Both the position numbers and the translations under genes were made by a program. Below, one piece after another: positions 54,298 through 58,776 of a stretch of DNA of 64,000 nt (position 1 is the first letter of the stretch; the number at the start of each line of letters is the position of its first letter). The notes beneath the pieces are model-generated. The model did not search any database. It worked only from the letters and a program-made list of their open reading frames with translations, and was not told where the DNA came from. Source of the stretch: Georgenia thermotolerans (GTDB taxonomy: Bacteria > Actinomycetota > Actinomycetes > Actinomycetales > Actinomycetaceae); assembly GCF_009193185.1 (NCBI RefSeq), contig NZ_VUKF01000020.1, forward strand, positions 1 to 64,000. Direction: 5' to 3'.

Positions 54298-54531
54298 ATG
54301 GCAACCGAGGACCTGGCCCGCAAGGCCAAGGAGGCGTTCCAGAACGAGAAGGTGAAGGCGGCCCTGCGCACCGAGCAGGCGGAGGAGGTGAGCGACGCCG
54401 TCCTCGACCGGGCAGCCGGGCTCGCCGACCGCCTCACCGGAGGGCGCTACACCGAGCAGGTGGAGCGGGGCCGCCACGCGGCGGACGAGCGCATCGGCAC
54501 CGACGCCGCCGGGCGGCCTCCCCGCCCCTGA
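54298..54531 (+). CDS. MT0933/Rv0909-like small protein, copy 1
   Basis: A 77-residue charged helical protein of the MT0933-like (Rv0909) antitoxin family: LARKAKEAFQNEKVKAALRT and the end GGRYTEQVERGRHAADERIG. Rv0909 is paired with an SRPBCC-type toxin in Mycobacterium; no such partner is adjacent here, so the antitoxin label is doubtful. GGAAGGACC precedes the ATG. It is convergent with the amidase, and a paralogue lies beyond that gene. Confidence 0.75.
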   Translation: MATEDLARKAKEAFQNEKVKAALRTEQAEEVSDAVLDRAAGLADRLTGGRYTEQVERGRHAADERIGTDAAGRPPRP

Positions 54532-54547: not shown

Positions 54548-55993
54548 TCAGCGGTAGTCCGGCGCGAGCGCGGGCCACGGATCGGCGGCCTCGAGCTGCG
54601 CGGCCAGGCCCAGCAGCGCCTCCTCCTGGCCGAGCCGGGCGCCGAGCATCACCCCGAAGGGCAGCTCGCGCGGCCCGTCGCCGTCGTCGACCACCTCCCG
54701 GTGCAGCGGCAGGGAGATCGCCGGCGCGCCGATGATGTTCCACGCCGACGTCCACGGGGTGAACGCCTTCTGGGCCTGGAAGTCCCCGGCAGGGTCGGCG
54801 TCGTCGCGCATGGCGCCGATCTTCACCGGCGGCTGGGCCAGCGTCGGGGAGAGGATGACGTCGAACGCCGACCACGCCAGCGCGGTCTGCCGGGTGAGGC
54901 GCTGGACGTCGCCGACGGCCCGGGCGTAGTCGGCGGCGCTGAAGCCCCGGCCCACCTCGCGCATCCACCGCGTCAGCGGGACGAGCAGCTCCTCGCGCTC
55001 GGGCGGCACCGGCGCCCCCAGCGCGGCGACCGACCACAGCGGCATGAAGGCGTCCCACTGCTCGGGGGAGAAGGGCACCGGCGCCTCGTCGAGGTGGTGG
55101 CCCAGGCCCTCGAGCAGCCGGGCGGCCCGGTCCACGGCGGCGCGCGCCCCGGGGTGCACCGGCGCGTCGGCGACGTTGACCGGCGCGGTGAGCACGCCGA
55201 CCCGCAGCGGGCCCGGGGCCCGGTCGCAGGCGTCGAGGAAGCTCGTGCGCGGCTCGGGCAGCAGGTGCGCGTCGCCCGGCCAGTGCGCGGAGAGCACGTC
55301 GAGGAACGCCGCGTTGTCCCGCACGGTGCGGCTGACCACGCCGTTGGTGGCCAGGGCGGCGCCGTCGACGCCGTACGGTCCGGGCGAGACGCGCCCGCGG
55401 GAGGGCTTGAGCCCGACCAGGCCGCACGCGGAGGCCGGGATGCGCAGCGATCCCCCGCCGTCGCTGCCGTGGGCGACCGGCACGATCCCGGCGCCCACCG
55501 CCGCCGCGGCGCCGCCGCTCGAGCCGCCGGCGGTGCGGCTGCGGTCCCACGGGCTGCGGGCGGGGGCGGCGACGTCGGGCTCGGTGTAGGGCGGCAGGCC
55601 CAGCTCGGGGGTGGTGGTCTTGCCGACCATGAGGGTCCCGGCCGCCCGCAGCAGGGTCACGACGCCGTCGTCCAGCGGGGCGACCGTGCCGGCGAAGGCG
55701 GCCGACCCGCACTCGAACGGCAGCCCGGCGACCATCGTGAGGTCCTTGACCGGCACCGGCACGCCGAGGAAGGGCGGCAGCGCGCCGGCGCCGCCGTCGT
55801 CCGCCAGCTGCTCCTCCGCCTCGGCGGCCTGTGCCCGGGCCCGCTCCTCCGCCACGTGCACGAAGGCGCCCACGTCCGGGCCCAGCCGGCGGGCGCGGTC
55901 GAGGGTGTGGTCGGCCACCTCGCTCGGGGAGACCTCGCCGGCGCGGACGGCGGCGGCGAGGTCGAGGGCGGAGAGCTCGTGGATCTGCGTCAT
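54548..55993 (-). CDS. Amidase (amidase signature family)
   Basis: A 481-residue Ser-Ser-Lys hydrolase. Lys in PVPVKDLTMVAG (about residue 80), the cis-Ser in GGSSGGAAAAV (about 157) and nucleophile Ser in GSDGGGSLRIPASACG (about 176-190). Substrates in this family range from amides to acyl-amino acids; GatA is excluded because GatB/C are absent and the length and context differ. The ATG at 55993 is the family start; upstream reading is a shadow of the repeat genes. Confidence 0.9.
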   Translation of the reverse strand: MTQIHELSALDLAAAVRAGEVSPSEVADHTLDRARRLGPDVGAFVHVAEERARAQAAEAEEQLADDGGAGALPPFLGVPVPVKDLTMVAGLPFECGSAAFAGTVAPLDDGVVTLLRAAGTLMVGKTTTPELGLPPYTEPDVAAPARSPWDRSRTAGGSSGGAAAAVGAGIVPVAHGSDGGGSLRIPASACGLVGLKPSRGRVSPGPYGVDGAALATNGVVSRTVRDNAAFLDVLSAHWPGDAHLLPEPRTSFLDACDRAPGPLRVGVLTAPVNVADAPVHPGARAAVDRAARLLEGLGHHLDEAPVPFSPEQWDAFMPLWSVAALGAPVPPEREELLVPLTRWMREVGRGFSAADYARAVGDVQRLTRQTALAWSAFDVILSPTLAQPPVKIGAMRDDADPAGDFQAQKAFTPWTSAWNIIGAPAISLPLHREVVDDGDGPRELPFGVMLGARLGQEEALLGLAAQLEAADPWPALAPDYR

Positions 55994-56094
55994 GCCCCCG
56001 AGGCTAACCAGGACGCGCGGGGCGGACGGGACGACGGCGGGCGGAGACGGGGACGACGGCGGCCGCGGCCCACGACGGCGGACGGGGCCCTGCG

Positions 56095-56130
56095 GTTGCA
56101 GGTCCCCCGAGGCCGGACGGAGCCTGGAGG
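56095..56130 (+). promoter_or_regulatory. GTTGC-N26-GGAGG element, copy 1
   Basis: GTTGC (56095-56099) and GGAGG (56126-56130) are separated by 26 nt. The GGAGG is 43 nt before the ATG of the MT0933-like copy 2, too far to be a Shine-Dalgarno. The same spacing recurs at two more genes below. Confidence 0.45.
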
Positions 56131-56173: not shown

Positions 56174-56368
56174 ATGGGCATCGGTGACAAGGCCAAGGAC
56201 CTCGGTGAGAAGGCCAAGGACTTCCTCAACACCGACAAGGGCGAGGAGAAGAGCGACGACGCGCTGCAGCGCGGCACGGACGCCCTCAGCGAGCGCACCG
56301 GCGGCAAGTACGACGAGCAGCTCAAGAAGGGGCAGACGGCCGCGGACCAGCACATCGGCGAGGAGTAG
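56174..56368 (+). CDS. MT0933/Rv0909-like small protein, copy 2
   Basis: A 64-residue, highly charged helical protein: GDKAKDLGEKAKDFLNT, then SDDALQRGTDALSERTGGKYDEQLKKG and AADQHIGEE. It aligns with copy 1 through GG(R/K)Y(T/D)EQ and AAD(E/Q)(R/H)IG. No toxin gene is adjacent. A weak GGACGAGG precedes the ATG. A 19-bp hairpin follows, so it is probably transcribed alone. Confidence 0.78.
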   Translation: MGIGDKAKDLGEKAKDFLNTDKGEEKSDDALQRGTDALSERTGGKYDEQLKKGQTAADQHIGEE

Positions 56369-56516: not shown

Positions 56517-56843
56517 ATGAGTGACGACACCACCCCACGCTCTGTCTCCGCTGACGAGCCCCAGCCCCACGTCAAGCTCCCCCGCGGCCGCTTCGACGAG
56601 GGCCAGGCCAGCGACGCCGAGCTCGCTGAGGAGCTCGAGCAGCCGCACGGGCGCTTTGACGAGGGCGAACGCTCCGGCACCAGCGCCACCACGCCGGACG
56701 AGCCCATCCGCGGCCGCTTCGACGAGGGCCAGATCAGCGACACCGAGCTCGCCGAGGAGGTCCGCCAGCCGCACGGCCGGTTCGACGAGGGCGAGCGCAC
56801 CACGCCCCCCGAGGAGCCCGACGTCGGCCGGACCGACTTCTGA
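56517..56843 (+). CDS. GRFDEG-repeat acidic protein, 21-residue period
   Basis: A 108-residue, very acidic, hydrophilic protein with no membrane segment or Cys. GRFDEG occurs at residues 24, 45, 66 and 87, exactly 21 apart. Odd repeats continue as Q(A/I)SD(A/T)ELAEE and even repeats as ER, so the unit is really a 42-residue pair. The protein is probably disordered or repeatedly binds one partner. I recognise no characterised family. GGAGGGACG (56505-56513) precedes the ATG. A second protein with the same hexapeptide lies 200 nt downstream. Confidence 0.75.
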   Translation: MSDDTTPRSVSADEPQPHVKLPRGRFDEGQASDAELAEELEQPHGRFDEGERSGTSATTPDEPIRGRFDEGQISDTELAEEVRQPHGRFDEGERTTPPEEPDVGRTDF

Positions 56844-56896
56844 GCCCGGAACCTCCTGACCGCGTCGAGCTCACCCGCTCCGCCTCCCCGCGGCGG

Positions 56897-56979
56897 CGGG
56901 TCGCGTCGCGCCCCGAAGGGGCTGCACCGGGTCGTGCCCGGAAGGGGTTACGCCGGGTCGCGCCCGGAAGCGGTTGCGG
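56897..56979. repeat. 26-nt tandem repeat upstream of the second GRFDEG gene
   Basis: CGGGTCGTGCCCGGAAGGGG followed by TTACGC (56928-56953) is repeated with changes at 56954-56979. A longer related copy starts at 56897. The last copy contains the GTTGC of the shared upstream element. Confidence 0.7.
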
Positions 56980-57008
56980 CGGTCACCGGCGCCCACGACA
57001 CTCGGAGG
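56972..57008 (+). promoter_or_regulatory. GTTGC-N26-GGAGG element, copy 3
   Basis: GTTGC (56973-56977), GACACT (56997-57002) and GGAGG (57004-57008), with spacing identical to copy 2. The GGAGG is 31 nt before the ATG of the second repeat gene. Confidence 0.5.
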
Positions 57009-57039
57009 CTCACGACGAGGTGACGGCGAAGGGCGCGCA

Positions 57040-57342
57040 ATGAGCGAATCTCCCATGACCGGTGGGTACGACCGGGCGGACCGCGAGACCGAGGAGGGCC
57101 TGCACGGCCGGTACGACGAGGGCGAGGCGGCCGACGCCTCCCTCGACGCCGAGGAGGGCATCCACGGCCGTTTCGACGAGGGCGAGGCGGCCGACGCCTC
57201 CCTCGACGCCGAGGAGGGCATCCACGGCCGTTTCGACGAGGGGCAGGCGAGCGACGCCACCCTCGACGCCGAGGAGGGCGTCCGCGGCCGCTTCGACGAG
57301 GGCCAGGCGACCGACGACGCCCCCGGGCACCCGATGACCTGA
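57040..57342 (+). CDS. GRFDEG-repeat acidic protein, 20-residue period
   Basis: A 100-residue acidic protein. GR(Y/F)DEG occurs at residues 23, 43, 63 and 83, exactly 20 apart, each followed by (E/Q)AxDAxLDAEEG and a (L/I/V)(H/R) pair. Two units are identical at DNA level (57121-57180 and 57181-57240). No Cys, no signal peptide, few large hydrophobic residues: likely disordered with one short recognition motif per repeat. The ATG at 57040 lacks a strong Shine-Dalgarno (GAAGGG is 7 nt upstream). Function unknown. A hairpin terminator follows. Confidence 0.78.
   Translation: MSESPMTGGYDRADRETEEGLHGRYDEGEAADASLDAEEGIHGRFDEGEAADASLDAEEGIHGRFDEGQASDATLDAEEGVRGRFDEGQATDDAPGHPMT
57121..57240 (+). 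repeat. Perfect 60-nt tandem duplication inside the repeat gene
   Basis: Bases 57121-57180 and 57181-57240 are identical, encoding two identical 20-residue units. Neighbouring units differ at several codons, so this duplication is recent or homogenised. Confidence 0.97.
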
Positions 57343-57406: not shown

Positions 57407-57499
57407 AGGTGGCATATGTGTCCGTCACCAGGGTGCCGGCCCGAAGATATGTGCCCAGGCACGTTGTTTCGGTCCGGTACGCCCCAGAAGATGCCACCT
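57407..57499. promoter_or_regulatory. Dyads and direct repeats upstream of livJ
   Basis: AGGTGGCAT (57407-57415) and ATGCCACCT (57491-57499) form a 9-bp inverted repeat 75 nt apart. ATATGTG occurs at 57414-57420 and again at 57447-57453. These may be operators for the transporter operon; no regulator gene is adjacent. Confidence 0.4.
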
Positions 57500-57546
57500 G
57501 AATCACCTCTCAGGTTGGGAGGTGCACCACCAAGGAAGGCGGTCTC

Positions 57547-58776
57547 ATGCGAGGCACAAGGAAGTCGCTCGCTCTGACCCTCGGCGTGGCCACCATGCTG
57601 GCCGTCGCCGCGTGCGCCCCCTCGAGCAGCGGCGGCGACAGCGCTGCCACCGCGGCCGGGTCCTCCCAGGAGGCCAGCCAGGGCGGCGAGCCGATCAACG
57701 TCGGCATCATCACCTCGACCACCGGCCCGCTGGCCGCCTACGGCAAGACCTTCACCGAGGGGTTCGAGGCCGGTCTGGACTACGCCACCGACGGCACCGG
57801 CGAGGTCAACGGGCGCGAGCTCAAGGTCACCTACGAGGACGACGGCGGCGACACCGACCGCGCGGTCACCCTCGCCCGCGACCTCATCGGCCAGGGCTTC
57901 ACCATCCTCGGCGGCACGGCGTCCTCCGGCATCGCGCTGTCCCTCGCCGAGCAGGCCGAGCAGAACAAGGTCCTCTACGTCTCCGGCCCCGCGGCGACCG
58001 ACGCGCTCACCGGCATCAACGACTACACGTTCCGCTCCGGCCGCCAGTCCCTGCAGGACGTCGCCACCGCCGGCTCGTTCGCCGACGTCAAGGGTCAGCA
58101 GGTACTCGTCTTCGCCCAGGACAACGCCTTCGGCCAGGGCAACCTCGCCGCCGTGGAGGCGGTGCTGGGCGCCCAGGGCGCCGAGGTCACCTCGGTGATG
58201 GTGCCCGAGGACGTCACCGAGTTCACCCCGTTCGCGGCGCAGGTCCTCCAGGCCAAGCCGACGATGGTCTTCGTCGCCTGGGCCGGCGCCACCTCCGGCG
58301 CCATGTGGCAGGCGCTGGACCAGCAGGGTGTCCTCGACGACATCACCGTCGTCACGGGCCTCGGGGACGCCTCGACCTACAACGCCTACGGCGCGGCGTC
58401 GGAGAAGATCGACTTCCTCAACCACTACTTCCCCGGCGCCGCCGACAACGCGATCAACACGGCGATGATCGACCACGTCGAGAAGGCCGGCGGCACCCCG
58501 GACCTGTTCACCCCGGACGGGTTCACGGCCGCGCAGATGATCGTCCGCGCCGTGGAGGAGGCCGGCGGCGCCGACGACGTCGACGCCATGGTCGCCGCCC
58601 TCGAGGGCTGGAGCTTCGACGGCCCCAAGGGCGCCTACACCATCCGCGCCGAGGACCACGCGCTCATCCAGCCGATGTTCCAGGCCAAGCTCGTCTCCGA
58701 CGGCAACGGGGGCTGGAAGCCCGAGCTGGTCTCCACGGCCGCCGCGGAGGACGTGGCCCCACCCCAGGCGGGCTGA
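57547..58776 (+). CDS. livJ: Branched-chain-type ABC solute-binding lipoprotein
   Basis: A 409-residue periplasmic-type receptor of the LivJ/AmiC fold. Lipoprotein signal with lipobox AVAAC (Cys23), a Ser/Gly linker, then INVGIITSTTGPLAAYGK, the family start, and LTYEDDGGD-like and YVSGPAATDAL segments. The ATG follows AAGGAAGG. The cargo is not necessarily an amino acid: related receptors bind aromatic or dicarboxylic acids, and an acyl-CoA synthetase ends this operon. Confidence 0.88.
   Translation: MRGTRKSLALTLGVATMLAVAACAPSSSGGDSAATAAGSSQEASQGGEPINVGIITSTTGPLAAYGKTFTEGFEAGLDYATDGTGEVNGRELKVTYEDDGGDTDRAVTLARDLIGQGFTILGGTASSGIALSLAEQAEQNKVLYVSGPAATDALTGINDYTFRSGRQSLQDVATAGSFADVKGQQVLVFAQDNAFGQGNLAAVEAVLGAQGAEVTSVMVPEDVTEFTPFAAQVLQAKPTMVFVAWAGATSGAMWQALDQQGVLDDITVVTGLGDASTYNAYGAASEKIDFLNHYFPGAADNAINTAMIDHVEKAGGTPDLFTPDGFTAAQMIVRAVEEAGGADDVDAMVAALEGWSFDGPKGAYTIRAEDHALIQPMFQAKLVSDGNGGWKPELVSTAAAEDVAPPQAG

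Follow-up and report, generated by a model that had tools for sequence, protein, structure and literature searches.

A hexapeptide, GR(F/Y)DEG, occurs four times in each of two adjacent small open reading frames of Georgenia thermotolerans, termed P1 and P2 here. The locus raises the question of which property of such a repeat is conserved and what the repeat may be for. A family with four near-identical motifs on variable spacers offers a clean test of whether the motif, its count or its spacing is kept by evolution. The whole stretch of DNA analysed (the window, 64,000 nucleotides) displays the following features around P1 and P2.

54298..54531, forward strand: MT0933a, a second gene of the MT0933_antitox family (PF14013, E-value = 6.5e-10), separated from MT0933b by the amidase gene
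54548..55966, reverse strand: amidase-signature enzyme (PF01425), 5′ end approximate
56174..56368, forward strand: MT0933b, MT0933_antitox family (PF14013, E-value = 1.1e-10), the conserved upstream neighbour of the P genes
56517..56843, forward strand: P1, 108 aa, GRFDEG at residues 24, 45, 66 and 87, alternating connectors, C-terminus GRTDF
57040..57342, forward strand: P2, 100 aa, GR(Y/F)DEG at residues 23, 43, 63 and 83, 20-residue unit
57547..58776, forward strand: substrate-binding protein of a branched-chain-type ABC transporter (PF13458), the downstream flank of the P-gene slot

Repeat architecture and constraint in P1 and P2

Both open reading frames and all eight motif positions are exactly as given in a preliminary description of this DNA, and the paralogy of P1 and P2 and their lack of cysteine are borne out as well. 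None of 20,000 residue shuffles of P1 contains the motif, and 3 of 20,000 shuffles of P2 contain it, never more than once per shuffle. Thus the four copies are not a product of chance. Asp and Glu together make up 27% of P1 (net charge −17) and 30% of P2 (net charge −23).

A single connector, (Q/E)AxDAxLxxEE, had been proposed for both proteins. The three P2 connectors fit it, but P1 shows two alternating types, QASDAELAEELEQPH and QISDTELAEEVRQPH after motifs 1 and 3, and ERSG... and ERTT... after motifs 2 and 4. P1 is therefore better viewed as two 42-residue double units. Its repeat units 1 and 3 are identical at 55 of 63 nt, and the other five pairs at 34–37 of 63. P2 consists of three complete 20-residue units and a shortened final unit. 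Units 1 and 2 of P2 share 58 of 60 nt in the window vs. 49 of 60 in Georgenia ruanii, and part of the likeness between P2 units comes from recent duplication or conversion.

Several further frames of P1 and P2 are also free of stop codons, and an open frame alone says little because stop-free frames are common at such a G+C content. Comparison with the G. ruanii orthologues gives a dN/dS of 0.243 for P1 and 0.267 for P2, with differences at the three codon positions of 9/3/17 and 5/8/18, respectively; the neighbouring transporter binding protein gives 0.163 and MT0933b 0.332, the latter on 7 changes. Both frames are under purifying selection in this one species pair. The motif codons vary less than the remainder of P1 and P2, in line with the selection on the motif proposed before: approximately 1 nonsynonymous change is found in approximately 111 motif sites and approximately 28 in approximately 366 sites elsewhere (Fisher p = 0.006). 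This lends support to constraint on the motif and is no proof of it, because the figures come from a single species pair with rounded counts, and repeat units are not independent.

The P family in Georgenia

Relatives of P1 and P2 are found in six of nine Georgenia genomes, i.e. the window's own, G. ruanii, and four further genomes, G005–G008. Homologues are present in other Georgenia species and hence are not confined to the source strain, a doubt raised in the preliminary description. Within a family-level sample of 213 genomes, members are found in six, all Georgenia, and the overlapping class (394 genomes), order (396) and phylum (217) samples show no member outside the genus. In all four of these profile searches the best 11–22 first-look candidates per genome were scored, a procedure which a diverged member could escape, and E-values are per single genome. 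A pattern scan of genome contigs gave 145 stretches with two relatives, both from Georgenia (G. ruanii NZ_VUKE01000010.1 and Georgenia sp. SYP-B2076 NZ_RXOZ01000004.1); it returned none of the homologues in G005–G007, so that either its coverage is not exhaustive or these genomes lie outside the set scanned. Viral contigs gave 34 pattern-matching stretches and no relatives, and plasmids and phages likewise contain no relatives of P1 or P2. Thus within the collections searched the P family is restricted to Georgenia.

Weak matches outside the genus are seen in three genomes of the class sample (E-values 4e-4 to 1e-3), 11 of the order sample (0.003 to 0.1) and one of the phylum sample (9.3e-5). 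They were rejected as family members; in none does the matching region, taken with 180 nt on either side, contain more than two motif-like hexamers. The phylum match (genome G1036), the sole one outside Georgenia with an E-value below 0.0001, is a long TPR-like open reading frame in which GRFDEA occurs twice, with a weak match to TPR_12 (E-value = 0.00068, below the Pfam cut-off). GRFDEA of TPR-like arrays resembles the P hexamer. However, the TPR unit is 34 residues long with Ala at the sixth hexamer place, whereas P hexamers end in Gly and are spaced 18–25 residues apart, and no TPR profile matches any of nine family members (E-value up to 1).

Every hexamer of the 11 family proteins was scored against the motif and kept if at least four of six positions matched. 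Exactly four motif-like hexamers are found in each of the 11 proteins, and Gly occupies the sixth position in 44 of 44. The search string behind the residue tallies itself requires F/Y, D and G, so that the invariance of these residues there is built in; the four-of-six scan is without that circularity. Aromatic residues in the 11 proteins number 44 within the motifs vs. 10 outside. The strict periods of 20 and 21 residues described before are exact in P1 and P2, and a spacing of 20 is seen in P2 of three genomes and of 21 in P1 of three genomes, but they do not hold across the relatives: successive motifs lie 18–25 residues apart over the 11 proteins. The conserved feature is thus the count of four motifs, and fixed periods are only local.

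In four genomes the P1-type protein has R(S/T)DF as its C-terminus. A third paralogue in G007 (L055:9580-9879) is without that ending and is situated away from the P locus, directly upstream of an open reading frame that reads as flavin/ferredoxin reductase-like. It carries four motifs and has a pI of 9.6 and a net charge of +3; the acidic character described for the proteins therefore holds for P1 and P2 but not for this paralogue. Homologues in G005 (L052:9792-10196) and G006 (L053:9916-10302) display a His/Asp/Ser-rich N-terminus that is metal-binding in look.

Profile databases agree with the earlier statement that P1 and P2 belong to no known family. The best Pfam match is DUF2388 (E-value = 0.025, below the cut-off) and the best NCBIfam match is MutT (E-value = 0.18), neither of them credible. 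In PHROGs the best is phrog_19391, of unknown function, with an E-value of 0.0045 for P1 over 26 residues, and no stretch passes alone. PADLOC gives no match to the P proteins, and no PDB sequence matches the family profile at an E-value up to 10. The string GRFDEG was not found in the literature searched (mostly outside subscription journals). As far as these searches reach, the P family is new as a sequence family; as a kind, the small, probably disordered repeat protein is already known.

The position of the P genes is the same in G. ruanii and G005–G008: they follow MT0933b immediately and in the same orientation, and the amidase gene diverges on the other side. Branched-chain-type ABC transporter genes come next after the P genes in four of these five loci; the stretch fetched from G006 contains MT0933b and a P gene but lacks the binding-protein gene. 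P genes are missing in G001, G002 and G004. The slot holds nothing in G001 and G002, where the binding-protein gene directly follows MT0933b; in G004 it consists of 1.5 kb with an open reading frame (L059:6650-8217) that reads as membrane-transporter-like. As this open reading frame replaces the P genes, the interval from MT0933b to the binding-protein gene differs in gene content among genomes. The amidase and MT0933b are present at the locus in nine of nine Georgenia genomes and the transporter binding-protein gene in eight of nine, loci without P genes included; thus none of the window genes tested tracks the P genes. Of ten window neighbours scanned, nine match other Pfam families (E-value up to 1e-5) and one is without a match.

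Like the P proteins, MT0933_antitox proteins are small and hydrophilic, and MT0933b has a GG(K/R)Y(D/E)E-like word akin to the motif. PF14013 gives no match in P1 or P2, and descent of the P family from MT0933 was rejected after a profile comparison that aligns 11 columns only (E-value = 0.04, probability 1.3%). Among more than 100 MT0933-family matches in the order, 30 loci were examined, and none contains an open reading frame with two or more motif-like words. No literature on MT0933 with antitoxin was found in the sources covered, which lie mostly outside subscription journals.

Possible roles of the repeat

The disordered state envisaged in the preliminary description agrees with FoldIndex, which is negative in 11 of 11 proteins (own script). 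AlphaFold models, each from 3 sequences, show a mean pLDDT of 58.7 and pTM of 0.11 for P1 and 54.3 and 0.10 for P2, and DSSP finds nothing in either model; such low confidence speaks only weakly for disorder, because 3-sequence alignments often model poorly whatever the fold. Together the predictions suggest that the P proteins are disordered.

The reading favoured here, though tentatively, is that P1 and P2 are genuine, genus-restricted, disordered and flexible strings of four short linear motifs for a putative partner. A fixed motif number, an aromatic residue amid charges and freely varying spacers together look like a flexible multivalent ligand. The unit of recognition would be (G)R-(F/Y)-D-E-G-(Q/E), carried on variable, mostly acidic spacers. 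Each motif, with one aromatic residue amid charged R, D and E, would bind weakly to a folded partner or to the protein's own copies, and four motifs on one chain would provide avidity, as CsoS2 repeats do for Rubisco and shell proteins. The reading presumes that the P proteins are expressed and bind, and that such a partner exists. The count of four may also owe something to the shared descent of the 11 proteins.

A bacterial precedent is CsoS2 of alpha-carboxysomes. It is a disordered protein whose short repeats hold conserved residues, among them a Tyr, that give multivalent binding, and the four helical repeats of its N-terminal domain bind Rubisco weakly and multivalently (PMC11365436). 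The P proteins would resemble it in conserving short repeat residues on a probably disordered chain. However, CsoS2 is approximately 90 kDa, with three domains and other motifs (VTG, Y). In addition, no CsoS2 profile is seen among the Pfam matches of nine family members (E-value up to 1), and no carboxysome family among the ten window neighbours scanned.

The MT0933-type neighbour and clpB, which lies approximately 5 kb from the P genes in the window and is also in the stretch fetched from seven of the eight other Georgenia (not G002), suggest a stress setting, and the P proteins may have a stress role. A bolder version of the linear-motif reading, and a doubtful one, is a genus-specific code. 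A Georgenia receptor, either a folded protein or an oligomer, would read R-(F/Y)-D-E-G; P1, P2 and the third paralogue would all be tetravalent, with the number four and not the spacing under selection, and P1 and P2 would serve to cross-link or organise the partner under stress.

The main rival reading, which is possible if on the unlikely side, takes the P proteins as hydrophilins or LEA-like protectants. They would be abundant, disordered and very hydrophilic and would shield other proteins in drying, salt or stationary phase, with the motif a loose structural repeat that has no specific ligand. Hydrophilins are defined by more than 6% glycine and a hydrophilicity index above 1.0, as given in PMC7448490, and YciG is named as one in PMC5437024. 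All 11 family proteins exceed the glycine cut-off and 10 of 11 the index, taken as minus GRAVY (P1 1.37, P2 1.09, with G. ruanii P2 falling short at 0.93), so that 10 of 11 pass both; the neighbour MT0933b, with an index of 1.35, fits as well, and the clpB gene mentioned above is in keeping with this reading too. The glycine cut-off, however, is passed by every one of the 14 proteins measured in the neighbourhood (P1 and P2 among them), and only hydrophilicity discriminates in this G+C-rich stretch. Hydrophilins are also a class by composition and not by descent, whereas in the P family a particular sequence recurs a fixed number of times, and both its residues and that number are kept more tightly than a bulk protectant seems to require.

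Group 1 LEA proteins and GsiB carry a 20-residue hydrophilic repeat, and the P2 repeat recalls it, being 20 residues long, hydrophilic and glycine-containing. However, the P1 repeats are spaced at 21 and those of relatives at 18–25, and the motif is another one. The LEA_5 profile gives no LEA match for P1 and P2 (E-value up to 10) or for nine members (E-value up to 1). Two stress-sigma promoter patterns were not found upstream of MT0933b in 8 genomes or of P1 in 2 genomes. The linear-motif and hydrophilin readings can both hold. If a partner exists, the repeat would be a new bacterial linear motif; if none exists, the P proteins would be hydrophilins with an unusually ordered sequence.

The other readings are weaker than these two. 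Cation binding had been raised in the preliminary description; that the P proteins buffer cations, with clustered acidic groups and in some species His binding Ca2+, Zn2+ or similar, appears improbable. The acidity of P1 and P2 and the His-rich N-termini in G005 and G006 speak for it indirectly, but these N-termini occur in only two of six P-bearing genomes, the basic paralogue of G007 keeps all four motifs, and no known metal-binding repeat matches.

About equally improbable is that these are lineage-specific proteins of little consequence, i.e. young orphan repeats kept by chance or being lost. Their absence from three of nine Georgenia genomes, with the transporter gene directly after MT0933b in two, would agree with this, as would the lack of relatives outside Georgenia in the collections searched; a dN/dS of 0.24–0.27, the constraint on the motif and the same slot in six genomes argue against it.

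Very improbable is that the P proteins are multi-core precursor peptides of a graspetide-like or another RiPP, or that they serve as modifying-enzyme substrates, as proposed before. A chain with several short, nearly identical repeats is the typical form of a multi-core precursor, but the ten window neighbours scanned include no RiPP-type modifying enzyme and no candidate beyond general enzymes, the adjoining amidase occurs in loci without P genes as well, and the connectors are partly conserved too.

Intergenic intervals and short DNA elements

The gap between MT0933b and the P gene is 12 nt in G006 and 13 nt in G005. The two P genes are separated by 22 nt in G007; in G008 they stand in reverse order, 46 nt apart. 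Gaps this short suggest that MT0933b and the P gene (G005, G006) and the P-gene pairs (G007, G008) are transcribed jointly. The MT0933b–P1 gap in the window is 148 nt and contains, by eye, a strong inverted repeat; on these grounds P1 may have its own promoter. The P1–P2 gap (56844-57039) is 196 nt in the window vs. 125 nt in G. ruanii, and in the window it shows short direct repeats by eye.

A 25-nt element, TGAATCACCTCTCAGGTTGGGAGGT, is found at 57499-57523, just 5′ of the binding-protein gene. It is present in eight of nine Georgenia loci with at most two changes and is absent from G006. In 345 sampled class genomes the window's own copy alone is found within 2 mismatches, and Rfam matches are at chance level. 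The element is possibly an RNA or operator element. Upstream of MT0933b, the word GGTTGC (56094-56099) is kept in seven of eight aligned Georgenia loci.
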